From: Pseudomonas putida
GTDB taxonomy: Bacteria; Pseudomonadota; Gammaproteobacteria; Pseudomonadales; Pseudomonadaceae
NCBI GenBank assembly: GCA_041071465.1
Contig: CP163498.1
Coordinates: 3,800,001-3,864,000, forward strand
Direction of reading: 5' to 3'
DNA length: 64,000 nt
Shown: in pieces, positions 5,506 to 64,000 of the stretch
How positions within the stretch are numbered: the first letter of the stretch is position 1
Layout of the letters: every line of letters begins with the position of its first letter
Program-made: the position numbers and the translations under genes
The notes under the pieces: model-generated
Seen by the model: only the letters and a program-made list of their open reading frames with translations
Told to the model about the DNA's origin: nothing
The model's database searches: none

Positions 5506-6141
5506 ATGCAGAAAGAACCTCGTAAGGTCCGTGAGTTTCGCCGTCGCGAACAGGAAATCCTCGACACCGCGCTCAAGCTGTTTCTCGAACAGGGCGAAGA
5601 CAGCGTCACCGTCGAGATGATCGCCGACGCCGTGGGCATCGGCAAAGGCACGATCTACAAGCACTTCAAGTCCAAGGCGGAAATCTACCTGCGCCTGATG
5701 CTCGACTACGAGCGCGACCTGAACGCGCTGTTGCACTCGGCCGACGTCGACCGTGACAAGGAAGCCCTGTCGCGCGCCTACTTCGAGTTCCGCATGCGCG
5801 ATCCGCAACGATACCGGCTGTTCGATCGCCTTGAAGAAAAGGTGGTCAAGGGCAACCAGGTGCCAGAAATGGTCGAGCAGTTGCACAGCATCCGCGCTTC
5901 CAACTTCGATCGCCTGACCCAACTGATCAAGGGTCGTATCAGCGAAGGTAAACTCGAAGACGTGCCGCCGTACTTCCATTACTGCGCCGCCTGGGCGCTG
6001 GTGCATGGCGCCGTGGCGCTGTACCACTCGCCGTTCTGGAGCAATGTATTGGAAGACCAGGAAGGCTTCTTCCAGTTTCTGATGGACATTGGCGTGCGTA
6101 TGGGCAACAAGCGTAAGCGCGACCCGGAACCAACCAACTGA
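5506..6141 (+). CDS. TetR-family transcriptional regulator
   Basis: 211 residues from the ATG at 5506 (MQKEPRKVREFRRREQ). The N-terminal helix-turn-helix runs about residues 14-60 and shows the classic TetR core VEMIADAVGIGKGTIYKHFKSKAEIY. The remaining helical domain should bind a ligand, which is unknown. It lies beside the small RNA and tatD as a TetR gene does in P. aeruginosa (PA2957), so it is a conserved core regulator. The frame extends upstream to 5368 without family-like sequence and was not used. Confidence 0.88.
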   Translation: MQKEPRKVREFRRREQEILDTALKLFLEQGEDSVTVEMIADAVGIGKGTIYKHFKSKAEIYLRLMLDYERDLNALLHSADVDRDKEALSRAYFEFRMRDPQRYRLFDRLEEKVVKGNQVPEMVEQLHSIRASNFDRLTQLIKGRISEGKLEDVPPYFHYCAAWALVHGAVALYHSPFWSNVLEDQEGFFQFLMDIGVRMGNKRKRDPEPTN

Positions 6142-6251
6142 AGCGCTTCGTCACTTCCCGCTGAAGTCGGTAGGGTGCGGTGGGGGCTTGCAAAAACCTG
6201 ATTTATGAGTTAGGTTTCGCCTGCCCCTCATCATCCATGCCGGAGTCATTC

Positions 6252-7220
6252 ATGATTGTCGATCGTCAAGGCAGGCGCTTTCGCAACCTGCGTGTCAGCC
6301 TGACGGCTGCCTGCAATTACGCCTGCACTTACTGCGTACCCGACGGTAAGCGCCTGGTGGCGGCGCAGGACGAACTCTCAGCAGACTCCCTGGCCCGTGG
6401 CGTGGCCTACCTGATCGAAGCTGCCGGCGTCGAGCGCCTGCGCATCACCGGCGGTGAACCGCTGATCAGCCCGCGCCTGGACGCCTTTCTGGCTGGCGTG
6501 GCCAAACTTGATCTCGACGATATCTCGCTGACTACCAATGGCCAGCTGCTGGAGCGCAAATTGCCGCAGTTGCAGGCGGCCGGTATTCGTCGCCTGAATG
6601 TTTCCCTCGACACCCTCGACCCGCAAGCCTTCCGCCGTATCGCCCGAGGCGGCGACTTGGCCTGCGTGCTGGCGGGTATGCAGCAAGCCAGTACCCTGGG
6701 CATGCAGGTGAAAGTGAACATGGTGCCGATGCGTGGGCAGAACCTCGACCAGGTGCTGCCGCTGCTGGAATACTGTCTTGAGCGCGGCTTCGAGTTGCGC
6801 TTCATCGAACTGATGCGCATGGGCCATCTGGCCCGTGATCACAATGCTTTCCTGCAGCAGTTCGTCGGCCTCGACCAGCTGCTCACGCTGATTGGCGGCA
6901 AGCATACCTATGCCCAGGTCGACGCGCCCTTGGATGCCACTGCCTTGCGTTATCAAATCCCCGGCAAGGGCTACTTCGGTGTTATCGCCAACGAGACTGT
7001 GCCGTTTTGCCGTACCTGCTCACGGTTGCGCCTGTCTTCAACGGGCTGGTTGCATGGCTGTCTGTCGTCAGGCAACCGCCACTTCGTCGGTGACCTGCTG
7101 GAAAAGCCACGCCATCAGGCGCTGCCAGCCCTGCAACGGTTGTTGGTCAAGGCGTTGGCAGACAAGCAGGAGCTGGCGTTTTCCGGGGGCGTTACGGTGA
7201 TGAAGGTGATCGGTGGCTGA
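6252..7220 (+). CDS. moaA: GTP 3',8-cyclase, MoaA-type radical SAM enzyme
   Basis: First step of molybdenum cofactor synthesis, converting GTP to the 3',8-cyclo nucleotide. 322 residues. The radical-SAM cluster motif CNYACTYC sits at residues 20-27 and the SAM motif GGEP follows. The C-terminal second cluster is complete, C-x2-C-x13-C (CRTCSRLRLSS..GC), and the protein ends in the Gly-Gly pair that MoaA needs. The ATG at 6252 has an upstream GGAG and gives the usual N-terminus MIVDRQGRRF. No other moa gene is adjacent, so this may be a second, solitary copy. I see no molybdenum-cofactor riboswitch upstream. Confidence 0.88.
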   Translation: MIVDRQGRRFRNLRVSLTAACNYACTYCVPDGKRLVAAQDELSADSLARGVAYLIEAAGVERLRITGGEPLISPRLDAFLAGVAKLDLDDISLTTNGQLLERKLPQLQAAGIRRLNVSLDTLDPQAFRRIARGGDLACVLAGMQQASTLGMQVKVNMVPMRGQNLDQVLPLLEYCLERGFELRFIELMRMGHLARDHNAFLQQFVGLDQLLTLIGGKHTYAQVDAPLDATALRYQIPGKGYFGVIANETVPFCRTCSRLRLSSTGWLHGCLSSGNRHFVGDLLEKPRHQALPALQRLLVKALADKQELAFSGGVTVMKVIGG

Positions 7221-7286
7221 AGCTGGCGCAAAAGCTGCATCCGCCGGCTATTCGCCGGTTTTTCGTCGCCGGCCACTGGAGGAAAG

Positions 7287-7892
7287 ATGCGTAGCCTGGT
7301 CTTGCTGCTGGCGCTGATGGCGCTGGGCGGCTGCATGAATGTCAGTGATATGGGCGAGGGCGTTCGCTATCACATGAGCGATGCCGGTCTGCTGGATCAC
7401 AGTGAAACCCGCCGCACCTTGTCGATCCGCCTGCAACCGGACTCGTTCATTTTCATCGGCCAGGGTGCATTCGTGCCGCCGGGCAAGGGGCCAGTGCCAC
7501 GGCAGAACGCAGTGGCAGAGCAAGCCTTCAAGAGCTTCGTCGAGTATTTCCCGCTGGTACGCCGCGCCCAGGGCCCGTTGGGCCTGGAGGAGGCCATTGC
7601 CCAGGCGCGCTCGGTAGGCGCCGATTACGTGTTGTATACGCGTTTCGCGCGCACCGACGACCGCATCGGCAATGGTGACGAGTGGTACGACGAACAGGCC
7701 GTCGACCGCGTGGGTTGGGACAGTGGCGTGGTGCAGATGATGCTGATCGAAACCAATACCCGCTACCTGATCGACACCGCCCGCATCAAGAGTCGTGGCG
7801 GTTTGTTGACGTTCCACGACAATACCCCGGAGGATTTGCTTGGTGCGCCGATGCGCGAGTACGCTCGTAGCCTTCTGGGCATGAGTGAATGA
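7287..7892 (+). CDS. DUF4823-type lipoprotein
   Basis: 201 residues with a lipoprotein signal: hydrophobic stretch [13 protein letters not shown] followed by the lipobox Cys at residue 16 (ALGGC). The mature part has no catalytic motif I recognise. Its repeated alternation of strands and the block [16 protein letters not shown] fit the DUF4823 family of Pseudomonas lipoproteins. A strong GGAGGAAAG precedes the ATG. The next gene starts ten bases after the stop, so the two are probably one operon. Function unknown. Confidence 0.8.
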
Positions 7893-7902
7893 GGCAAGCG
7901 TG

Positions 7903-8463
7903 ATGAGCGATTCCGGCAAGGCCAATGACCTTCTGGCGCAGATCCCCAAGGCCAAGGGCCTGCCGCCGGTGCATCTGTGGAACCCGGACTTCTGCGGCGA
8001 CATCGACATGCGCATTGCCCGCGATGGCACCTGGTACTACCTGGGCACGCCGATCGGGCGCAAACCGATGGTGCGGCTGTTTTCTACCATCATTCGCCGC
8101 GATGGCGATGACTATTTCCTGATTACTCCGGTCGAGAAGGTTGGCATTCGCGTTGACGATGCCCCGTTCGTGGCTGTAGCGCTGGACGTGCAGGGCGAGG
8201 GCAAGCAGCAAGTGCTGCGCTTTACCAGCAATGTCGAGGACCAGGTCGAGGCCGGGCCGGACAATCCTCTGCGGGTGGTCATCGATCCGGTGACGCAGGA
8301 GCCGTCGCCGTATGTGCTGATGCGCAGCAACCTTGAGGCGTTGATACACCGCAATGTGTTCTACCAACTGGTGGAGCTGGCGGTGCCGCGTGAGATCGAG
8401 GGTGAGGAATGGCTTGGAGTATGGAGCCAGGGCGAGTTTTATCCGATTGGGCGCAGCAGCTGA
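7903..8463 (+). CDS. DUF1285 family protein
   Basis: 186-residue cytoplasmic protein without signal peptide or membrane segment. The family pattern is visible: [40 protein letters not shown] near the N-terminus, then [17 protein letters not shown]. Structures of DUF1285 members show a mixed alpha-beta fold, but no function is established. The ATG at 7903 is chosen for the GAGG upstream and for homology; an in-frame ATG at 7885 overlaps the lipoprotein gene. Confidence 0.85.
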
Positions 8464-17267: not shown

Positions 17268-17343
17268 GGGGCTATAGCTCAGCTGGGAGAGCGCCTGCAT
17301 GGCATGCAGGAGGTCAGCGGTTCGATCCCGCTTAGCTCCACCA
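17268..17343 (+). tRNA. tRNA-Ala (GGC), copy 1
   Basis: 76 nt with acceptor GGGGCTA/TAGCTCC, anticodon loop ATGGCAT, T-loop GGTTCGATCC and encoded CCA. Confidence 0.97.
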
Positions 17344-17415
17344 AATTCCGCTTAGCAGCCAAGGCTGATAAGCAAGACCGGGTCCAGCAACCGGGTCTTG
17401 AAGGTAAGAAGGTTC

Positions 17416-17491
17416 GTCCCCTTCGTCTAGTGGCCTAGGACACCGCCCTTTCACGGCGGTAACAGGGGTTCGAGTCCCCTAGGGGACGCCA
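17416..17491 (+). tRNA. tRNA-Glu (TTC), copy 1
   Basis: 76 nt with acceptor GTCCCCT/AGGGGAC, anticodon loop CTTTCAC, T-arm GGGGTTCGAGTCCCC and encoded CCA. Confidence 0.97.
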
Positions 17492-17544
17492 GTTTTACAC
17501 AAGCGATGTTTCACGATGTCGCTGGGCCGCGAGGCTATAAATCT

Positions 17545-17620
17545 GGGGCTATAGCTCAGCTGGGAGAGCGCCTGCATGGCATGCAGGAGGTCAGCGGTTC
17601 GATCCCGCTTAGCTCCACCA
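17545..17620 (+). tRNA. tRNA-Ala (GGC), copy 2
   Basis: Identical in sequence to the first tRNA-Ala copy at 17268. Confidence 0.97.
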
Positions 17621-17662
17621 ATTTTGCCGCGGTTCGCTTTGGCGGGCCGGCACGAAGGTTAC

Positions 17663-17737
17663 GTCCCCTTCGTCTAGTGGCCTAGGACACCGCCCTTTCA
17701 CGGCGGTAACAGGGGTTCGAGTCCCTAGGGGACGCCA
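17663..17737 (+). tRNA. tRNA-Glu (TTC), copy 2, one base short
   Basis: Matches copies 1 and 3 except that the T-stem reads GTCCCTAGG instead of GTCCCCTAGG, so one C is missing at about 17723-17725 and the T-stem or acceptor stem loses a pair. It is 75 nt long. Probably a sequence error, in line with the other indels here; otherwise a defective tRNA copy. Confidence 0.9.
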
Positions 17738-17763
17738 CTTTTTCCTGCGTTTTGCAGGGCTTA

Positions 17764-17796
17764 AAAAGGCTCGTCGATTATTGATGAGCCTTTTGT
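17764..17796 (+). terminator. Terminator between tRNA units 2 and 3
   Basis: AAAAGGCTC and GAGCCTTTT form a perfect nine-base stem that ends in T residues, placed after the second tRNA-Glu. Confidence 0.8.
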
Positions 17797-17799
17797 TTC

Positions 17800-17875
17800 G
17801 GGGCTATAGCTCAGCTGGGAGAGCGCCTGCATGGCATGCAGGAGGTCAGCGGTTCGATCCCGCTTAGCTCCACCA
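17800..17875 (+). tRNA. tRNA-Ala (GGC), copy 3
   Basis: Identical to the other two tRNA-Ala copies. It begins four bases after the preceding terminator hairpin. Confidence 0.97.
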
Positions 17876-17917
17876 TTTCTGCCAGGGTTCACGCAAGTGG
17901 ACCTTCGCGAAGGTTAC

Positions 17918-17993
17918 GTCCCCTTCGTCTAGTGGCCTAGGACACCGCCCTTTCACGGCGGTAACAGGGGTTCGAGTCCCCTAGGGGACGCCA
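17918..17993 (+). tRNA. tRNA-Glu (TTC), copy 3
   Basis: Full 76-nt copy identical to the first tRNA-Glu, with CCA encoded. It is the last tRNA before the insertion sequence. Confidence 0.97.
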
Positions 17994-53489: not shown

Positions 53490-53530
53490 TCGCGGCCTCA
53501 GCGAAGCAAACGCAACAAGCAACATCGCGA

Positions 53531-53606
53531 GGGTGATTAGCTCAGCCGGGAGAGCATCTGCCTTACAAGCAGAGGGTCGGCGGTTCGATCCCGTCATCAC
53601 CCACCA
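53531..53606 (+). tRNA. tRNA-Val (TAC)
   Basis: 76 nt with acceptor GGGTGAT/ATCACCC, anticodon loop CTTACAA, T-loop GGTTCGATCC and encoded CCA. Confidence 0.97.
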
Positions 53607-53671
53607 CTTCCTGAGATGTTCCTAAAGCATCGGGTTCGCAAGAAGTCGATAGCCAGAGAGGAACGCACTGC

Positions 53672-53748
53672 GCAGCGGTAGTTCAGTCGGTTAGAATACC
53701 GGCCTGTCACGCCGGGGGTCGCGGGTTCGAGTCCCGTCCGCTGCGCCA
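53672..53748 (+). tRNA. tRNA-Asp (GTC), copy 1
   Basis: 77 nt with acceptor GCAGCGG/CCGCTGC, anticodon loop CTGTCAC, T-arm GCGGGTTCGAGTCCCGT and encoded CCA. Confidence 0.97.
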
Positions 53749-53847
53749 TTTTTCAGTAACAGATGGGTGCCTGGCACCGGTCTGAAGCCACAAGGCAAAT
53801 GCCTTGGGCTGATCCCAGTTTCAATCAGGCGCGAGCCTGAACGATAC

Positions 53848-53924
53848 GCAGCGGTAGTTCAGTCGGTTAGAATACCGGCCTGTCACGCCGGGGGTCGCGG
53901 GTTCGAGTCCCGTCCGCTGCGCCA
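53848..53924 (+). tRNA. tRNA-Asp (GTC), copy 2
   Basis: Identical in sequence to the first tRNA-Asp copy. The 25 or so bases before it are nearly repeated before the third copy. Confidence 0.97.
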
Positions 53925-53969
53925 TCTTCGTTTCAAGGTCCCTAGAACACCTTGAAGCAAACACAAGAG

Positions 53970-53994
53970 AAGCGATCACGTTATCGCTTTTTTT
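53970..53994 (+). terminator. Terminator between tRNA-Asp copies 2 and 3
   Basis: AAGCGAT and ATCGCTT form a stem around CACGTT-like loop bases, followed by seven or more T residues. Confidence 0.8.
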
Positions 53995-54064
53995 GTGCCT
54001 GCCCGATGCCATTGCGGCGCAAGGGTAGACCCAGGTTTCAATCGGGCGCAAGCCTGAATGATAC

Positions 54065-54141
54065 GCAGCGGTAGTTCAGTCGGTTAGAATACCGGCCTGT
54101 CACGCCGGGGGTCGCGGGTTCGAGTCCCGTCCGCTGCGCCA
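54065..54141 (+). tRNA. tRNA-Asp (GTC), copy 3
   Basis: Identical to the other two tRNA-Asp copies; lies downstream of an internal terminator. Confidence 0.97.
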
Positions 54142-54182
54142 TCTTCGCCTCAAGGCCCCATGAACGCCTTGAAGCAACGTCA

Positions 54183-54206
54183 AAGCGACCTTCGGGTCGC
54201 TTTTTT
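54183..54206 (+). terminator. Terminator of the tRNA-Asp array
   Basis: AAAGCGACC and GGTCGCTTT stem around a TTCG loop with a following T run. Confidence 0.9.
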
Positions 54207-54342
54207 CGTTCTGGCGCCTGGTAAATTGCCTGCCTTTACCCAGATTTACACCAACCTGACAGGTTCTTCACCGACCAGCGGTTCCTGTGCCTGCCTGCTG
54301 TGTTGCACAATAGGCACCTTCTCGACATACCCGGAATTCGCA

Positions 54343-55155
54343 ATGACCAGATCTTCCGTCTTTGGTGCGCTCGGGCTGGCCCTGGTGCTGGCGGGCGTGA
54401 CCGGTTGTTCCTCGAAAAAAGCGGCCGTCTATGAGCACGAAAACTTCGATGACTCAGGTACGTTCTCGCGCAGCTTTCCGGTGAGCGATGCTGGCTCTTG
54501 CGAGGCGGCCAGGCGTGCCTTGCTCAGCCAGGGGTACATCATTACCAGCAGCGGTGCCAACCAGGTGGTGGGCAACAAGAGCTTCCAGCAGAACAGCGAG
54601 AACCACCTGCAGATCAGCTTCAACGTCACCTGCGCGCCGGATGTGAGCGACGAACAGCGCTCGACCATGTTCGCCAACGCCCTGCAGGACCGTTATGCAC
54701 TGAAAAAGTCCAATACCTCCGCCAGCCTGGGTGTGGGCGTGCTGGGGTCGGTGTCGATGCCGATCGGCTCCAGTGACGACTCGATGGTCAAGGTAGCCAG
54801 CGAGACCGTGACTGCGGCGCAGTTCTATGACCGCTATTTCGCCTTGGTGGAGAGCTATTTGCCCAAACCGAAGAAGGTCGAAAAGGCCAAGGTCGACGCA
54901 CCAGTGCCGAAGGTTGAAAAGCCGGCGGTTGACCTGGGGTTGCCCGAGCAGGCTGCGGCGAACCCAGTGGCGCCTGCCCCTGCCCAGGAAGCTGCACCCG
55001 CGCCTGCGGCTGTTTCCCCGGCAAGTGAGGCAGTCGCGGCACCGGTGGTGGATGACAGTCAGGGTTCGCAGCCGGTCGCACCGCCCGTGGAGGCTGCGCC
55101 GATTCAGGTGCAGCAGGATGCACAGCCTGCCGAGGCTGTGCCGCCTTCCCTTTGA
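54343..55155 (+). CDS. DUF2242-type lipoprotein
   Basis: 270 residues from the ATG at 54343. Lipoprotein signal: hydrophobic FGALGLALVLAG and lipobox Cys at residue 22 (GVTGC). A folded part (about 30-180) with SCEAARRALLSQGYIITSSGANQVVGNKSFQQN fits the DUF2242 family; the last 90 residues are a low-complexity tail of Ala, Pro, Val and Glu. Function unknown. It is the last gene with the core character before the accessory region. Confidence 0.8.
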   Translation: MTRSSVFGALGLALVLAGVTGCSSKKAAVYEHENFDDSGTFSRSFPVSDAGSCEAARRALLSQGYIITSSGANQVVGNKSFQQNSENHLQISFNVTCAPDVSDEQRSTMFANALQDRYALKKSNTSASLGVGVLGSVSMPIGSSDDSMVKVASETVTAAQFYDRYFALVESYLPKPKKVEKAKVDAPVPKVEKPAVDLGLPEQAAANPVAPAPAQEAAPAPAAVSPASEAVAAPVVDDSQGSQPVAPPVEAAPIQVQQDAQPAEAVPPSL

Positions 55156-55449
55156 TAAAGCCGGTACAGGCTGTACACATCCCCTGTTACAGACACCCCG
55201 CGATAACTTCCTGAACACCTGCTACGTTTATCACTCCTTTCTTCCGGAGCGTCGTTAACCGTTACTTCAAGAAAATGCCATGAGGCTCAGTGCCTTATGG
55301 GACCTAACGTTTTTTGATGTTGAATTGTGAATGCGACAGGCGGTTGGCCAGATACCGAAATGCTCGGAGTGAATTGCTGTTTGGTGGGGGTAAGCGTGTC
55401 GCACTCTACACTTGTGCGCTGCAAGCCCAGCGGCATGCGGCACTCATCG
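55156..55449. other. Intergenic junction between core and accessory region
   Basis: No gene seen. An imperfect hairpin (ATGCCATGAGGCTCAGTGCCTTAT) lies near 55276-55300. No direct repeat of a nearby tRNA 3' end was found by eye, so no attachment site is claimed. Confidence 0.5.
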
Positions 55450-55746
55450 TCAGTTGGATGATTTCCAAGGCGCTTCCGACAGATTGATCTCTTCCTGCAC
55501 CCGTTTTAGCAAAAGCTCGGTCGAGACCCCCTCTCTTTCGGCATAAGTGCATACCAGCAGGGTGACTGGATGAATGTGCAGCATCGGCGCCAAGGCGTCG
55601 AGCTTTTCAATCGTCGGAGAATACATGCCACGTTCGAGTGAGCTGATATAGGTTCGGCCGGAAACCTCGGATAAATCATCCTGGCTGATCGCGCGCTCTT
55701 TCCGGAACCAGCGAAACACCTTTCCGAAAGCTTTTTTCAGTTCCAT
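55450..55746 (-). CDS. Xre-type helix-turn-helix regulator
   Basis: 98 residues from MELKKAFGKVFRWFRKERAIS; the frame is open to 55815, but that part lies over the operator palindrome. The HTH_3 domain is at about residues 8-62 (ISQDDLSEVSGRTYISSLERGMYSPTIEKLDALAPML). It is divergent from the next gene, with a perfect inverted repeat between them. It resembles small phage-type repressors and controller proteins of restriction systems, but no restriction or methylase gene is visible here. Confidence 0.85.
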   Translation of the reverse strand: MELKKAFGKVFRWFRKERAISQDDLSEVSGRTYISSLERGMYSPTIEKLDALAPMLHIHPVTLLVCTYAEREGVSTELLLKRVQEEINLSEAPWKSSN

Positions 55747-55781
55747 TTGCTCAATCCGCAAAAGGAACGATGAAGCCGTTT

Positions 55782-55814
55782 TGAACAGTATATCGCTACA
55801 CAGTATACTGTTCA
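55782..55814. promoter_or_regulatory. Perfect 11-base inverted repeat, candidate Xre operator
   Basis: TGAACAGTATA (55782-55792) and TATACTGTTCA (55804-55814) are exact reverse complements 11 bases apart. The half-site ACAGTATA also occurs as a direct repeat at 55785 and 55800. It lies between two divergent genes, so one regulator could control both. Confidence 0.75.
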
Positions 55815-55829
55815 TTTTGAGGCATTGTT

Positions 55830-56258
55830 ATGTTCGTTTCCGACAGCAGGGCGGAGGTCAAAGGTCTGGCAGCACTTCTTGAGCCAGGGCAGCGTGGGTG
55901 GCACGTCATGCTGAAGCCTCAAATGTCACCGTGGTTCCATGCCACTGTGGTGACATGTGATGAGGGCTTTGATACCCGCACTACGGTGTTTATCGATTCT
56001 CTACCATCCCTCATCACATGGATTGAATCGGGTCAGGAGGGGATGTCGTTGGAATCCCTTCAGCTCGTTTCTCCTGGCTGGTTAAGAGGAGGCAAGGGAT
56101 GGGAAATGAATGCTCTTACAGAGATTGCGCAAAACCAACTGGAAGGAGCTGTAAGGTTCACTCTCCAGGATGGAAGGGTTTATTACTATCCTGATCCCGC
56201 TGCTCGAAGCACGCACGGCTTTGAAGAGGTACTTTATCGTTTGCATTCGGAGCATTAA
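55830..56258 (+). CDS. Hypothetical protein, 142 residues
   Basis: Not recognised. It begins MFVSDSRAEVKGLAALLEPGQ after a TTGAGG ribosome site. No signal peptide or membrane helix. Contains many Trp and Gly residues (SPGWLRGGKGWEMNAL) and strand-like stretches (FHATVVTCDEGFDTRTTVFID, VRFTLQDGRVYYYPDP). The divergent Xre gene and the palindrome between them suggest joint control. Probably a small alpha-beta protein of the accessory region. Confidence 0.6.
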   Translation: MFVSDSRAEVKGLAALLEPGQRGWHVMLKPQMSPWFHATVVTCDEGFDTRTTVFIDSLPSLITWIESGQEGMSLESLQLVSPGWLRGGKGWEMNALTEIAQNQLEGAVRFTLQDGRVYYYPDPAARSTHGFEEVLYRLHSEH

Positions 56259-56703
56259 GTGCCCGAGTGAGGAATCTAGCAGTTTTCCGACGAGCCTTGA
56301 GGCTCCGCTTACGCTGACGCCCAGTTTTCAATGTCGCCCCGTTCGAACTTGCGATTTCGAAAGGTCATTGTTGCTCGCGTACGCGTCTAGCTCTCCACTC
56401 ACCATCCGTCGTTCATGATGCGACAACTCCAGCTACCCTGGTGCTCCCAGCAGCGCTAGCCTCAGGGTCGATTATCGTTTCTGATCACACCACTCTTGTA
56501 TTTCTAGTGCTCAAGCTTGAGCCGGATCACTTAGGTCCGGCCCATCTTCACCGGCCCACACCAATCTATAACGGGCATCGCGACGCAGGCTTAAGTGACC
56601 GGCGGTGGCTGCTCGCTAAGTCGTCTCGTATCGCACGCCGTGACAGAAAAAATGAGTCTTTCGCCCAAGCGTACCAGTCGCCTTGGTCGGGGCATCATGA
56701 TGC
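56259..56703. other. Stretch without a recognisable gene
   Basis: About 445 bases. The longest open frame (56441-56791, plus strand) has no family-like sequence and runs into the gene on the other strand. I see no repeat, tRNA or clear terminator. It could be decayed coding sequence. Confidence 0.5.
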
Positions 56704-57432
56704 TCAATGTCGTGGAAAAAGCGTTCTTCCTAGTTTGGCTGCGGCTCCAACACCTTTCTGGGCCTCATTGAGAATGTCACGAGAGAAGTAATCTGCGAGC
56801 CGTGCGCGGCCCTCTATCTCCTGCCGGATGTATTCTGGATCAATGTTTGGAAGATCCACACGATAGGCCGCGTGATGAACCAATGCGGCAGCCTGGAAAA
56901 GCGCGTCGGAAAGCCTATATCTATCGAGCTCCAGTGCTGCGCATGCTTCTAGGATGGCGACCGCATCGCTTTCGGTTCCGCCAGTGATACGCCGGTCTGG
57001 CAAGGTGGAGTGTCGGCGAAGATGCTCCACGCACTGACGCAGCGAAGGGATTGAGAGACTAATGGAGTAATGCTTGCTGTACCAAGGGCCGATAGTGTCG
57101 ATTTCGTCCTGAGTGAGGGCCATTTCCTGAAAGTACCCGGCCCAAGCTTCCTGTATGTCCTCATCTATGCGCTCCTGACCAAGGCTGGCCAGATGCTCGT
57201 TGAGGCGTTTGACTAAGCGGAAATAGTCGAGTCGTACAGGTGGATCGCGATGCTCATCCATACTCAGCTCGAGGATTAAGGTCGCCGATGATTTTCCGCC
57301 GGCACGATGAAGATGGTCAAGATCGCCTTCAGGCACGGCCTTCTGATAAAGGCTGGCTGAGCGGCTAAGGGGCCAACCTTTTTCGCTTTCGCACCTACAA
57401 TCATCCAATTGACTACGTTCAACCGATATCAC
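56704..57432 (-). CDS. Hypothetical protein, up to 242 residues
   Basis: Not recognised. The longest frame starts at a GTG at 57432, only 21 bases from the divergent next gene; an ATG at 57261 (MDEHRDPPVRLDYFRLVKRL) would give 185 residues. Mostly helical by eye, with charged amphipathic stretches (YFRLVKRLNEHLASLGQERIDEDIQEAW) and a tail ending GAAAKLGRTLFPRH. No membrane helix, no catalytic motif I can name. Lies within the accessory region. Confidence 0.55.
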   Translation of the reverse strand: MISVERSQLDDCRCESEKGWPLSRSASLYQKAVPEGDLDHLHRAGGKSSATLILELSMDEHRDPPVRLDYFRLVKRLNEHLASLGQERIDEDIQEAWAGYFQEMALTQDEIDTIGPWYSKHYSISLSIPSLRQCVEHLRRHSTLPDRRITGGTESDAVAILEACAALELDRYRLSDALFQAAALVHHAAYRVDLPNIDPEYIRQEIEGRARLADYFSRDILNEAQKGVGAAAKLGRTLFPRH

Positions 57433-57453
57433 TAAGCAAGGTGGTGTATTTCT

Positions 57454-57858
57454 ATGGATTTGATGGCTCTGATTCAGCAGGCGCTTGAAGCGTCAGGGAA
57501 GCTGCGAGACCTTTCGAAAAAGGTTGAAGATGCGGATTTCAAAATGATACTGGCAGATCTTCACAGTGCCTTGGCTGATGCGAAACTTGAGTCTGGGGAG
57601 TTGAAGATGAAATTGGCATTGGCGCAAGAGGAGATTGTCAGGCTGAAGCAGCTGATCGAGCAGCGAGATAAAGGCAAACCCACCTATAACTCAGAGGGGG
57701 TGTATACCTTTGAAGGCGAGGTCGGTCGCTTTTGCACGGCCTGCTGGGACAGCGATGAACGCAAGATGCGCTTGACCGACTTGGCTAGTGAATTCCGATT
57801 TGTCGGTCAGTGGGAATGCCCCAAGTGCCATGCCGGGTATGGCGCAAAGGACGCATGA
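57454..57858 (+). CDS. Small coiled-coil protein with C-terminal zinc ribbon
   Basis: 134 residues. Residues 1-72 are a charged helical region with leucine spacing (LESGELKMKLALAQEEIVRLKQLIEQ), likely a coiled coil. The C-terminal 50 residues hold two Cys pairs, C-x2-C in FCTACWDSDE and in ECPKCHAGYG, a typical zinc ribbon. Such modules bind nucleic acid or mediate protein contacts; the function is not known. AAGGTGG lies ten or so bases before the ATG. Confidence 0.75.
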   Translation: MDLMALIQQALEASGKLRDLSKKVEDADFKMILADLHSALADAKLESGELKMKLALAQEEIVRLKQLIEQRDKGKPTYNSEGVYTFEGEVGRFCTACWDSDERKMRLTDLASEFRFVGQWECPKCHAGYGAKDA

Positions 57859-58012
57859 GGGACTTGGTCCGGTCAGTCATTCATCCATTGATTTGGCAAA
57901 GCTGCGCGCAATGAGCTAACGGGCGCTGAGGTCGACAGCCTGTGCGAGGTACTCCAGTGAGCGGATTCCTAGCGAGGTTGGTCAAGCGCCTTTCTGATCC
58001 TTTCAATATTCG

Positions 58013-58918
58013 CTATTGGCTCGGCATCCACTCTGCGGGATCGACCAGGTGCCATGATTGTGCTTCGCGATCAAAGTCCGTCCAAACCTCCTGCAGCTTG
58101 GCACGGTCACCTTGGAATAAGGGGCTATCCAAATGAGCGAACTGATCGAAATTGGCGGATGGCAAAACAGTGCCAGCGCCGCTGTAGCAGAACCAGGAGC
58201 CCACTACCTGGGCGATTTCTGCAATTTCACGCAAAGCTTGCTTGGCATCTGCCAGACCCCACCGCTCCAGCATGCGCCCTTGACGACTGGCCTCAGTGGC
58301 AGCGTGGGCGATATCCACGTTCACATGTTCAATGACGGACGAAAGCCGGCCTAGGCGGGACTCCAGCATGTCGAATACCTCGATTCGTATTAGATCATCT
58401 GGTGTGGATGCACCTGCGCTTACCCCGCTTAGCCAGTCGAACTCCTCGTGCCGCTTAACCGCGAGCTCATAGTGGTATTTCGAGGGCACCCAATACGAAC
58501 GCTTTCCCTGTTGGAGTTGCTCAGTAGCAAAGGTGTCATAAGCGGCGTGTGTACTGTGGTAGTTGTAGTTCAGCTCCGCGATATCCCTGACGTATACTAG
58601 GCGCGTGAGCTTTCCACGCGAGGCGCGGATGTCAGCGATCAAGCTACCTAATGAGCACACACTTCTCGGGCCGCGGATAGGTTCGACTTCCACGAGTCTG
58701 CGGATTCCCTGCATCGTCCCTGCCCAGAATCCGCTCGCCAGCATGTCCATGATCAAAATGTTTAGCTGTTTTTCACCGCTGACCGTGGGAGCTTGCCGCA
58801 CCATCTCTACGACACATGAATACGCTGCGATGTCCCACGCCATTTGATTCAACGCCTTAGTGATGGCGTTCTCCTCGGTCTCAAAAACCCGCTTCCATTC
58901 TGCGATCCGATCTAGCAC
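58013..58918 (-). CDS. Hypothetical mostly helical protein, 301 residues
   Basis: Not recognised with confidence. A GTG start at 58918 has a perfect AAGGAG seven bases upstream, which supports it as a real gene. It is helical and soluble, begins MLDRIAEWKRVFETEENAITKALNQMAWDIAAY, and has a motif-like RLVYVRDIAELNYNYHSTHAAYDTF. The helical layout recalls AbiU2/HEPN-type abortive-infection proteins, but no clear R-x(4-6)-H motif is seen, so that is only a guess. Confidence 0.6.
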   Translation of the reverse strand: MLDRIAEWKRVFETEENAITKALNQMAWDIAAYSCVVEMVRQAPTVSGEKQLNILIMDMLASGFWAGTMQGIRRLVEVEPIRGPRSVCSLGSLIADIRASRGKLTRLVYVRDIAELNYNYHSTHAAYDTFATEQLQQGKRSYWVPSKYHYELAVKRHEEFDWLSGVSAGASTPDDLIRIEVFDMLESRLGRLSSVIEHVNVDIAHAATEASRQGRMLERWGLADAKQALREIAEIAQVVGSWFCYSGAGTVLPSANFDQFAHLDSPLFQGDRAKLQEVWTDFDREAQSWHLVDPAEWMPSQ

Positions 58919-59056
58919 TGATGACTCCTTGGGGTTCTGTGATTAAAGCCATGCATACCGTGCTGGCTCGCGGTAGCAGCGGTCACAAGCACTGTGATGG
59001 CAATGGGATATCTTTCCTGTCTATGATGTTCCTTTAAACGGAGGCAGGGTACTGCG

Positions 59057-59965
59057 GTGATTGGGAATATTTTCAATGTTTTTTCGCGCCGCAAGGATAG
59101 TCAGAGCCAGCCGAAAAAGCAGCTTACAGAGCAATTTCGGCAAAGGACGTTCATGCTCATCCGCGACGTGGGCCCCGGAATGGTCGAGACCCTTGAGTTT
59201 CTACACGATAAGCTCTCCTATCTCACCGGGCGCCAAAACCTATCTGGAAACAAGAACGTCTCCTACGCTGATGACGCCTTCAGCTTTCTGCACACTTGCA
59301 GTGACCCTCATTTCCTTGATGCCATTGAGTATCTTGTCCATCAGGACGGATGGCATTACATCGGCGGTTACCATGAGCCTGTGATTGATCGTTTAAACGA
59401 GTTTTTGAACATTGACGATCTTCCCTATTTCGTTACGAAACCGGTATGGCAAACCACTGAGAAAATGTACAGGGGAGAGCTCACTAAGTTCACCGGAATT
59501 CGTGTGCACGCGAAGGTTATCCCAAGGGAAAGCCAAGCTATCCACGAGACGGCGATTGAGCCCGCTCTGAAGCTTTTACGTCAGCCAGCTTTCCTTAATG
59601 CCAATTCCGAGTTCATGGCAGCTCTGGAGGATTTTCGGCACGGAAAATTCGGTGACTGCGTCACCAAGTGCAACAGCAGCTATGAGAGCGTCATGAAGGT
59701 GATCTGCGGCCAGAAGGGTTTCGGGTATTCCCAGGGAGACACAACAGCCAAGCTTATTCGTACCATTATGGAGAAGACGGCGATGGACTCTTTCTGGGAG
59801 CAGCCACTGATGACCGTCGGTACGCTTCGTAACAAAGTGAGCACGTCGCATGGGGCCGGGGAGGTGCAGAAGGTAGTGCCGGAGCACGTGGCGAAGTACA
59901 CGATGAATATGACTGCTTCTGCGATCATCTTTTTGCACGATCAGGCTTACCGGACCAACACCTGA
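59057..59965 (+). CDS. Abi_C-like HEPN protein, probable abortive-infection factor
   Basis: 302 residues from a GTG at 59057 with GGAGG upstream. The C-terminal third (about 185-300) fits the abortive infection C-terminal family: a paired-helix part FRHGKFGDCVTKCNSSYESVMKVICGQKG, then VGTLRNKVSTSHGAGE with R258 and H265 as an R-x6-H motif of HEPN ribonucleases. The N-terminal part is unknown; it carries a His/Trp-rich segment HQDGWHYIGGYHEPV. Its stop lies 28 bases before the next start, so the two form an operon. Nuclease activity is inferred from the motif only. Confidence 0.72.
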   Translation: MIGNIFNVFSRRKDSQSQPKKQLTEQFRQRTFMLIRDVGPGMVETLEFLHDKLSYLTGRQNLSGNKNVSYADDAFSFLHTCSDPHFLDAIEYLVHQDGWHYIGGYHEPVIDRLNEFLNIDDLPYFVTKPVWQTTEKMYRGELTKFTGIRVHAKVIPRESQAIHETAIEPALKLLRQPAFLNANSEFMAALEDFRHGKFGDCVTKCNSSYESVMKVICGQKGFGYSQGDTTAKLIRTIMEKTAMDSFWEQPLMTVGTLRNKVSTSHGAGEVQKVVPEHVAKYTMNMTASAIIFLHDQAYRTNT

Positions 59966-59993
59966 AATCATCAACCAGCTTGCGGGAGTGGAC

Positions 59994-61706
59994 ATGCGTC
60001 GTTTCGATACCAAACCTTTGATTGCTTTGGCGACGGCTCCGAAAGACCAGGATGATCCTTGGTATGTAAATGCTGAGCAGGCTGTGCAGTACATAACAGC
60101 AAACGCGGAATCAGACGAGATTGTGATTTACGTGAGTGCACCCTTCCTGCTCATCGTGGGGGCGCTCGCCCCAATTGACAATGTCACTCCGCCAGATGGG
60201 AGTGCGCTACATAATCTTACGCTAACTACCAATGCAACCTGGTGCATTCAAAGGTCCTGGAGTTCAAGTGAAGGACACCGCGTCTACATTGAACCCGCTT
60301 TCCCTGATGACAGCGGATCTGCCTTAGCTGGGGGGGAGCCACTTGTCATCCGTCGACGTCTTGAGGGAGTTCATACCGGACCAACGCCGATCGAGATTAA
60401 CCAAAAGCTCGTGCATTGCCTCGACGTCCATTATGTCGAAGAGCGGAAAGCGTACTGTCGGCTCAACGACAATGGCGACATCGAAGATGTCATCAGAATC
60501 TTGACGTTGGCAGTTCCCGACCAGATAGAGGGTCGCGAGGTTGTCACGATTCTTCGTAAAGATTTGGACAACTACATGGCCCTTGCGGACTTGGCGTTGG
60601 TCCTAAAATTTGATTTCACCAGATACGTGCCGGGTAGCTTCGACAGCTGGCATGGCGCCACTCGATATCACCGAGACGAGTCGGATCTGTTTTTCCACGG
60701 TGGATCGATAAGGCGAGCTAGCTTCGCGAATGGGGCTATGGTGGTTAGGTCAAGGACCACGGTTGAAGAGCAAGAAGAAGTGTGGCGCAAGGATTTTGAC
60801 GATGATCCAGATCGTGATTATGCGGTCTTTAAAATCTATGACCGCAAAAATGACCGCCAGGTCGAGACCTCTTGCAGCCCCGAGCACATCGTCAGTTATT
60901 TCGAGGAAAGCGATCTTCCCTGGCAGATTTCGCCGGCTTTTTTCAGGGCAGAGGTGCTTAATCGCTTCAAAGGGGATCCGGAAAAATACACGCTGGAAGA
61001 CCGGAGCATTTCTTGCAGAGGGGCTTGGTTTCTGAAGTCTTACGATATCAATGAGGCCGGGCAGGTTCATGTATGGATCTGGGATCTCTCGAAACTTCCA
61101 TACGATGAGCAGCTGTACTGGAAGGCCTTCAACGAATGGCCAAAGGCTCCAATCTCTCAGCGAGCATATAGAACGGATATTGAAGGTGATTGGTACACTG
61201 AATATCAGCCGCTGGATTCCCTCAAGCGTAAGGTGCGTGAACTAGACAAACGAAAGCCAGCATGGTGGAACCCTCGCGGAGAGGCGTTGCTCGACAGCGT
61301 GCTAGCACCTGCCACAGATTCACCCAAGGAATGGGGTGATGAAATCATGGCTCTTGATCAATGCTTGGTGGAAGGCTTTCTCGACAAGCCATTGCGCAAA
61401 GTAGCCGAAGGAAAAGGGTGCGTTCTCGAGTCTACATGGCGCTCGCTTAAGCTGTTGTACGAAATCTTAGTGGCAAGCTCGATCAGCGCCGATGATGCCA
61501 GGGAAATTCTGGCGCCTATGAGAAGGCTTCATGAGCTACGCAATGAGATTCGAGGTCATGCTACTCACGAGAAAAAAGCTGTCGCCATTCGAGAAGCCCG
61601 AACTACCCATGGCAATTTTCGAGCCCATTTCTTTCACCTTGCCGAAGGTTGTGATCAAGCCCTTGTCGCTGTGTTGAGAGCCTTGGATTTTGAACTAGAG
61701 GAGTGA
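59994..61706 (+). CDS. Large protein with C-terminal HEPN-like motif, operon partner
   Basis: 570 residues from the ATG at 59994 (GGGAG seven bases upstream; an in-frame GTG at 59988 is also possible). The body (about 1-430) is not recognised; it is rich in Trp, Tyr and acidic residues, with a block SPAFFRAEVLNRFKGDPEKYTLEDRSISCRGAWFLKSYDINEAGQVH that looks conserved in type. The C-terminal 120 residues are helical and contain LHELRNEIRGHATHEKK with R516-x5-H522, the HEPN-like motif. Two HEPN-like products in one operon suggest RNA-targeting defence. Confidence 0.65.
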   Translation: MRRFDTKPLIALATAPKDQDDPWYVNAEQAVQYITANAESDEIVIYVSAPFLLIVGALAPIDNVTPPDGSALHNLTLTTNATWCIQRSWSSSEGHRVYIEPAFPDDSGSALAGGEPLVIRRRLEGVHTGPTPIEINQKLVHCLDVHYVEERKAYCRLNDNGDIEDVIRILTLAVPDQIEGREVVTILRKDLDNYMALADLALVLKFDFTRYVPGSFDSWHGATRYHRDESDLFFHGGSIRRASFANGAMVVRSRTTVEEQEEVWRKDFDDDPDRDYAVFKIYDRKNDRQVETSCSPEHIVSYFEESDLPWQISPAFFRAEVLNRFKGDPEKYTLEDRSISCRGAWFLKSYDINEAGQVHVWIWDLSKLPYDEQLYWKAFNEWPKAPISQRAYRTDIEGDWYTEYQPLDSLKRKVRELDKRKPAWWNPRGEALLDSVLAPATDSPKEWGDEIMALDQCLVEGFLDKPLRKVAEGKGCVLESTWRSLKLLYEILVASSISADDAREILAPMRRLHELRNEIRGHATHEKKAVAIREARTTHGNFRAHFFHLAEGCDQALVAVLRALDFELEE

Positions 61707-62116
61707 AGACGCTGAAGTAGTCATAACCAGCTCGCGCCTGTGAGCTGGTAGGCGATATCTAGAATCCACTGCGCGGCCAGGCTAGCCGATTTGGACTGTC
61801 GTAAAAACTAGCTTGGGGTAATAGCTCAACGGCCGTAAGCCACCATCCACCCATACCTTGCTTGATCAAACGGTTCCATCTTGCAAGTAGCTGGCTCGAC
61901 CACCGGTCAGCCTGATGAGGCAATCCGAAACAGGTCACTGGCCATGCTGCTGATCGGCTAGGATGGCCGGATCATTTCGGAGGCTGAATGGATGGATGCT
62001 ATGTGTCGGAGCACTGGAGTTGAAGGAGCAAGTCATTGTGTGGGGCGCAGTCCTACCGTTTCCCAGATGTCGCGTTGGTATGAGCGTACCTGCGCAACTA
62101 ACCGGCAGGCCGGGCA
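61707..62116. other. Intergenic gap of about 410 bp before the KAP gene
   Basis: A hairpin ACCAGCTC/GAGCTGGT (61726-61749) follows the operon and may end it, though without a T run. A plus-strand open frame at 61963-62181 overlaps the KAP start and shows no family features. Nothing else seen. Confidence 0.5.
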
Positions 62117-64000
62117 ATGACTGGCAAGATCGCTCGGCTGAGAGCGTGGTGGTCCGCCCGCAACAATGCAGGCTCCCCTGAGCAACCTACAGTGCATCAA
62201 TCCGTTGAGGTTGGCTCTGAAGCTCCCATCCGGACGAAATCCGAGGACCTCCTTAGGCGAGCCGACTTTGCAAGCCACATAGCAGATGTGCTATCCGAAC
62301 TCAGTCCACGTGAGGGTCGTGTTTTCGCCATCCGCGGTGGGTGGGGGTTTGGTAAGTCTTCCCTGAAATACCTCGTGATTGAGAGGCTTGAATCCCAGGA
62401 CAAGGCTGCGGACTGGCTTGATTTCAATCCTTGGCAATGGGGCGATGGCAACGCTATTTCCAGAGCCCTCTTTGGCCAGATCGCCGATCGATTGGGTGGC
62501 GAGAATTCCAAAGCTGCAATTGCCCGGGCGGAAGCCCTGAGACGCTACGGAGCAATCCTGGAAGGAGCGAGTGCTCCACTTAAAAAAGCGGGTGAATCCA
62601 ATGTGCAGATCTCCGCTGTATTGACAAATGCTTCCGTAATTGTTGCCGCATCAGCTATCGGATTCGATCTCCCAACCGTTGCCGTGGTTGCTGCGGCACT
62701 GGCTGGCCTTTCGATTGTCACTTCTGGGATTGGCCGTGTGTTGCGATTTTGGGGGCGTGATAAGAGCAACGAACCCTTGGACAAGGTCCGCGAAGCGCTG
62801 GAGAAGCGTCTTGGCAAGCTCACCAAGCCGCTGATTGTTTTCGTCGATGACATCGACCGGTTAGAACCTGATCAGATCCGGCTGCTGGTAAGGCAGGTCA
62901 AGGCCAACGCTAACCTGCCGAACATCGTCTTCGTGTTGCTGTTCCAGCCCAGCATTGTTGAGCGAGCGCTTGATCCGGTGGCGGACAACAATGGTCGTGC
63001 CTTCCTTGAAAAAATCGTCCAGGCGAGCTTCGACCTGCCTGCAGTGCCAGCGCACATGGTTTATCGGATCTTTGGTGAGCAGCTTACCCAAGTAGCCGGA
63101 TGGCTCGCGACCGAGGCCAATGGGTTTGATCAAGTTCGATGGGGCAACGCTCTGGTCGGCTGCATCCAACCCAGACTGCGTAACATGCGAGATGCGCAGC
63201 GCCTGCTTTCATCTATCACCGTGCATATGCCACTGCACGCTTCGGGCAGCGTCTTCGAAGTGAATATCGTGGATTTCCTTGTCCTGGAGACACTGCGCGT
63301 CTTCGAGCCAGATCTACACGAAGCATTGTTCCGAGAACGGGATCTGGTTCTGCAAGAGCGCAATGCTGTGAACGAGCGCCGCCAAGAGGTGGTAAAGCAA
63401 GGTGTTGAGCAACTGCTGAACAAGGTGCCGGAGGAGCGCCGGTCAGTGGCCCGTGACACGCTCAAGGAACTCTTCCCACCGCTCGAATGGGCGCTAGGCG
63501 GTACCCACTACGACGGTGGGTTCCGAAGTCAATGGCTGGTGGCAAAGCGGGTTTGTTCGTCTCGCTACTTCCCAAGATACTTTGAGCTGCAGACGGCACT
63601 TGGAGAGGTATCAGAGCGTCGCTTCGTGGAGTTTTTAGAGGCGACAGCATCAGAGAAGGAGTTAGCCGCTGCCGTCGCTTATATCGAAACTGATGGGTTG
63701 CTCCCCTCGTTGGTCAGTAGGCTCGACGAGTCCGTTGACCGTCTCCCTCCAGACAATGCTGCGGTGCTTCTACCAGGAATGTTCAGTATTGCTCAGAAGC
63801 TGGTACGGTTTCGTGGCGACCCTTTCAGCTCTCCATACGTATCTGCGTGGAGAGCAACATCTTGGTATCTCAAAGCGATTCCTCCTGCGGAACGTGGCGG
63901 GCTGGTTTTGGAGGCGCTCCGCACGACCAAAGCGCTATCAGTGGCTGCAATGCTTATCCACTTAAGCGACCCCGCAGATAACAAGCCTGGTGATAGGGAT
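62117..64000 (+). CDS. KAP-family P-loop NTPase, 3' end outside window
   Basis: Open to the window edge: 628 residues seen from the ATG at 62117, the first ATG after an in-frame stop at 62099. Walker A is GGWGFGKS (74-81) and Walker B LIVFVDDIDR with D244 and D245. A hydrophobic hairpin (about 172-206, SVIVAASAIGF and TVAVVAAALAGLSIVTSG) lies between the two, the hallmark of KAP NTPases, which dock to the inner membrane. The rest is helical (LRNMRDAQRLLSSI, then a long charged helix near 420-440). KAP proteins include the phage-exclusion factor PifA, so a defence role is plausible. Confidence 0.82.
   Translation, partial: MTGKIARLRAWWSARNNAGSPEQPTVHQSVEVGSEAPIRTKSEDLLRRADFASHIADVLSELSPREGRVFAIRGGWGFGKSSLKYLVIERLESQDKAADWLDFNPWQWGDGNAISRALFGQIADRLGGENSKAAIARAEALRRYGAILEGASAPLKKAGESNVQISAVLTNASVIVAASAIGFDLPTVAVVAAALAGLSIVTSGIGRVLRFWGRDKSNEPLDKVREALEKRLGKLTKPLIVFVDDIDRLEPDQIRLLVRQVKANANLPNIVFVLLFQPSIVERALDPVADNNGRAFLEKIVQASFDLPAVPAHMVYRIFGEQLTQVAGWLATEANGFDQVRWGNALVGCIQPRLRNMRDAQRLLSSITVHMPLHASGSVFEVNIVDFLVLETLRVFEPDLHEALFRERDLVLQERNAVNERRQEVVKQGVEQLLNKVPEERRSVARDTLKELFPPLEWALGGTHYDGGFRSQWLVAKRVCSSRYFPRYFELQTALGEVSERRFVEFLEATASEKELAAAVAYIETDGLLPSLVSRLDESVDRLPPDNAAVLLPGMFSIAQKLVRFRGDPFSSPYVSAWRATSWYLKAIPPAERGGLVLEALRTTKALSVAAMLIHLSDPADNKPGDRD

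Follow-up and report, generated by a model that had tools for sequence, protein, structure and literature searches.

The window analysed here is a 64,000-nucleotide stretch of Pseudomonas putida (contig CP163498.1, positions 3,800,001 to 3,864,000), and towards its end two genes, A and B, lie side by side on the forward strand as a real, horizontally moved cassette. Gene A (59057–59965) encodes 302 residues from a GTG start, and gene B (59994–61706) encodes 570 residues from an ATG at 59994, or 572 if translation begins at a GTG at 59988. The ATG of B follows the stop codon of A after 28 bases (59966–59993) and has a GGGAG stretch just before it; a scan for promoters and terminators gave nothing above chance expectation. 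Each product carries an R-x4-6-H motif of the HEPN kind, R258-x6-H265 in A (59828–59851) and R516-x5-H522 in B (61539–61559). An original prediction made from the sequence alone gave the two reading frames, the spacing and both motifs exactly.

A is an AbiJ-type, STM4504/CBY_0614-like protein and an ordinary member of this known type. Its N-terminal half (residues ~25–156) comprises helices and a few strands, and its C-terminal HEPN domain (~176–298), which is clear by structure, contains the R-x4-6-H motif of the AbiJ (HEPN) type. Pfam recovers the Abi_C-like end ascribed to A in the original prediction (24.8 bits, cut-off 24) and matches DUF7014 more strongly (58.6 bits, cut-off 27). The NCBIfam model STM4504/CBY_0614 reached 119.5 bits, under its cut-off of 150, and covers only residues 153–294. 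Pfam gave no match to an AbiJ N-terminal domain in A itself; PF18863 (AbiJ_NTD4) is precomputed for many relatives.

Whereas A is of a known type, B represents a new family within a known kind of system. Neither Pfam nor PADLOC matches it at E values up to 1, and NCBIfam gives nothing significant. Literature searches pointed to no work on its family, and none of five accessions or locus tags belonging to relatives and neighbours occurred in the papers available. Relatives of B number at least 789 among sequences clustered at 90% identity. The region most widely conserved among them is a core at residues ~312–400 (60927–61193), which has no assigned fold and includes eight positions (P314, F317, V321, Y332, N353, L368, P369 and N380) that are invariant in the 18 members of a divergent alignment (A5), nine of which are distant and 18–30% identical to B. 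This alignment takes in a weak partial B match, the G581 protein at L041, but not the likewise weak one from G609, and copies of B that are broken or partial (L009, L010, L020/L023, L029) were excluded from the alignments. Two copies are naturally broken, one by a split into two frames (L040, 7808–9521) and one by an interruption of inserted DNA (L009, 1081–5188).

Because R-x4-6-H is common by chance, the presence of the motif proves little and its conservation is what counts. There are two matches in A, against 1.8 in shuffled sequences of the same composition, and seven in B, against ~3.6–3.8. All 65 aligned relatives of A keep R258 and H265, and all 71 rows of a close alignment of B (A3) keep R516 and H522. 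In the divergent alignment, an R-x4-6-H occupies the R516/H522 column in 18 of 18 rows, with the histidine in the same column in 15. The other six matches in B are kept in at most 15 of the 71 and 5 of the 18 rows. Residues 418–568 of B (61245–61697) are predicted to form a HEPN domain: the motif sits at the end of helix 499–519, the expected helix end, and HEPN entries of the HEPN-MNT class are among the best fold matches of the B C-terminus.

The original prediction had also described the body of B as unrecognised. By structure, residues 5–256 (60006–60761) appear to resemble residues 1837–2077 of Avs3, its C-terminal domain. We compared B by sequence with a set derived from an Avs3a gene, in which 107 relatives of the last domain were found and the 102 longer than 1,900 residues were aligned; the L034 protein brought this alignment to 103. 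The close B alignment matched the Avs3 C-terminal part with P of 0.22, the widened alignment with P of 0.07, and its front part with P of 0.02 (local) and 0.009 (global). When 12 overlapping Avs3 windows were compared with B, the C-terminal one scored best (23.4 versus 11.9–18.2), with control scores of 15.7 and 16.1 for reversed profiles and 17.1 for the family of A, and the span of B matched by sequence (5–260) is close to that matched by structure. These comparisons back the link between B and Avs3 as support, not proof. At another locus (L039, 8158–10545, reverse strand) two adjacent short B relatives of 402 and 388 residues align with B in its middle and C-terminal portions only and retain the motif; the N-terminal domain of the family thus seems to be swappable.

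Two profile results, on the other hand, weigh against the fold assignments in B. The probability that hhalign itself gives to the Avs3 match is at most 2.3%. Against 23 HepT-type proteins, chosen from 30 loci by presence of the motif, the B C-terminus scored a non-significant 12.4 by hhalign and other B windows 11.2–12.3, a comparison that lacks power because the structurally clear HEPN domain of A scores no better (13.1), and that aligns R516 with the HepT arginine. Ten C-terminal pieces of B relatives gave no HEPN match in Pfam, and these searches found no significant profile match of B to a known HEPN family. Searches of solved structures with the sequence profiles of A and B returned no significant relative, and Foldseek yielded no usable match among viral models. 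Compared over their whole lengths by profile, A and B match with an E value of 0.13; a likeness of the B C-terminus to A (P of 0.007–0.011) was discounted, as its registers keep the two motifs apart. A search of 229 genomes with PF18739 (HEPN_Apea) gave three loci, which were not used further.

The borders of the cassette are defined by DNA similarity. With 53501–64000 as the query, four loci (L044, L045, L064 and L024) match only from 58993–59057 to 61681–61774, that is, A and B with short flanks, which sets the extent of the cassette at 58993–61774; two others (L043 and L006) match over a longer stretch, from ~56.4–56.5 to 61.75–61.78 kb. When L043, L044, L045, L064 and L024 are compared in all ten combinations, the block they share is A and B with no more than a few hundred flanking bases; the exceptions are a second block that L044 and L045 have in common over GajB-like genes (72% identity) and a match of 125 bases between L045 and L024. 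In seven loci, the window and six others, A and B lie 28 or 29 bases apart. Among 298 genomes of the genus, B occurs at 85% identity or more in five, with A adjacent in every one, and distant relatives in three further genomes bring the count for B to eight; full-length A occurs in six, one of which (G156) lacks B, while partial A matches (31–38% identity) occur in eight more and a 44-residue fragment in one more. Ratios of non-synonymous to synonymous substitution (dN/dS) are 0.065–0.094 for A and 0.069–0.091 for B (five comparisons each), and both genes are under purifying selection. Together, the borders, spacing, co-occurrence and dN/dS indicate that the pair is kept as a unit, in different settings, in this lineage.

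The two genes also occur apart. B has no A beside it in P. aeruginosa PA7 (L008), L011 and a P. aeruginosa plasmid (L030) (~74% identity) or in E. coli (L028, 53%), and A has no B beside it in the stretches examined of L061 (65%) and L026 (42%); the two modules were therefore probably joined in one lineage of the genus of the window. The undescribed two-component RNA-targeting defence that the original prediction considered is supported in part. B occurs in no record of a phage collection at an E value of 1e-5, in 7 of 72,556 plasmid records (five by distant partial matches) and in 4 of 369 class-level genomes including that of the window (two weakly), and a B-like DNA stretch is present in 13 of 5,426 E. 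coli genomes. Loci from E. coli, plasmids and genome collections were picked from match lists and are not random draws.

In the window, A and B reside in a low-GC genomic island. A tRNA-Val and three tRNA-Asp genes lie at 53531–54141, after which GC content drops from ~62% to 50–58% and stays low to ~109,000 in extended coordinates. Upstream and divergent from A, 58013–58918 on the reverse strand encodes a 301-residue protein, common to L006 and L043, with a sub-threshold HEPN_AbiU2 match (E value 0.019); at the probable motif site, VNVDIAH, the histidine is present but an arginine at the usual spacing is absent. Beginning 410 bases downstream of B and running past the window end, 62117–64450 on the forward strand encodes a PifA-like KAP P-loop NTPase (PADLOC E value 3.8e-67). 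As the original prediction held, no MNT-type partner is visible: Pfam found no nucleotidyltransferase in A, B and the five neighbours scanned (55830–64000). Elsewhere in the window, three alternating tRNA-Ala/tRNA-Glu pairs stand in a row (17268–17993).

We scanned chosen neighbours, rather than every gene, at ten B loci with PADLOC, counting matches with E values below 1e-10. As a raw count, seven loci have a defence neighbour: the PifA-like protein in the window, an Avs1b-like NACHT protein at L028, DitA and a CBASS SAVED-HNH effector at L008, NsnABC at L007 and Gabija-type genes at L045 (GajA/GajB-like), L044 (GajB-like, ~5 kb away) and L037 (GajA and GajB). No such match was found at L031 and L024, with one neighbour scanned each, or at L040, which has weak matches only. 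L031 is annotated as a Gamma-Mobile-Trio island, where 27 bases separate a distant B relative from a downstream gene for a 327-residue protein that matches nothing in Pfam, PADLOC or NCBIfam (5722–8313). The same designation was rejected for the P. fluorescens locus L007, whose open reading frames read as a satellite-like island, with an integrase-like and a primase-like gene near a tRNA-Arg, carrying NsnABC. L024 lies on an IMG/VR viral contig and has phage-like genes by reading of its open reading frames. At E. coli L028 (1212–8880), a 1,475-residue NACHT protein, a 482-residue protein of no family and the B relative stand in a row near intA and ssrA.

On balance we favour the reading that A and B form a horizontally moved abortive-infection cassette of two sensor–effector proteins. 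The N-terminal domains, AbiJ-NTD4-like in A and Avs3-C-terminal-like in B, would sense or restrain; at rest each protein would be held off by its own N-terminal domain until released by a phage component, whereupon the C-terminal HEPN domain, as a dimer, would cut RNA and halt translation and phage growth, resulting in abortive infection. A and B may help each other in this. There is close to an even chance that they are instead two independent single-gene abortive-infection systems placed in tandem on one mobile cassette with no interaction, as the solo copies of A and of B would suggest, although all five close B copies adjoin A and the tight borders and 28–29-base spacing across settings go beyond what loosely joined defence genes would need. 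An obligate complex, whether a mixed HEPN dimer in which one protein senses and the other cuts or an antitoxin-like restraint, would fit the adjacency, the order and spacing that the cassette clade conserves and the broadly matched divergence of A and B; we consider it possible but rather unlikely, given that both proteins have the full catalytic motif, unlike a non-catalytic antitoxin, and that relatives of each occur without the other.

Two further readings depart from defence by RNA cleavage. That the C-terminus of B is a helical bundle without RNase activity, B acting by another route, is distinctly unlikely in view of the motif found in all 18 divergent members at the expected helix end. 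That A and B are ordinary housekeeping or metabolic genes is highly improbable: metabolic-looking genes, by reading of their open reading frames, do flank some copies (for example L043 and L044), but the patchy presence of B in 8 of 298 genomes, the low-GC island and the defence neighbours argue otherwise. Beyond the favoured two-sensor cassette, it is conceivable, though we think it unlikely, that B exemplifies a widespread new class in which the C-terminal domain of an Avs-type receptor is mounted directly on a HEPN RNase and senses a phage protein without an ATPase, here paired with an AbiJ-type HEPN protein in a two-RNase response. If B does sense a phage protein through its Avs3-like domain, such domains would be portable and usable without the STAND ATPase, and B would be a small protein for studying phage recognition by Avs domains. 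The family also matters for its size, its lack of a domain model in three libraries and its occurrence beside CBASS, Gabija-like, NsnABC and NACHT genes.

Among known systems, AbiJ with AbiJ-NTD4 (for example CBY_0614) resembles A in its ~300 residues and its N-terminal domain followed by a C-terminal HEPN with R-x4-6-H, but A falls under the NCBIfam cut-off and is followed by B. A tested precedent for the sensor–HEPN layout is Tha, an anti-phage HEPN protein from S. aureus prophages that is activated by tail proteins (PMC11087260). It is like A in size and layout (301 versus 302 residues, C-terminal HEPN), is prophage-borne, as the L024 copy of A and B is on a viral contig, and has been proposed to act by abortive infection, but it is a single gene rather than a pair. 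HEPN-MNT toxin–antitoxin systems share the two-gene order with a HEPN in the second gene; here, however, the first gene also encodes a HEPN protein and not a nucleotidyltransferase. Avs3 (AVAST type 3), to which residues 5–256 of B are likened, combines a STAND ATPase and an N-terminal nuclease in ~2,000 residues, whereas B has 570 residues, with neither found by Pfam or PADLOC, and terminates in a HEPN-like domain.
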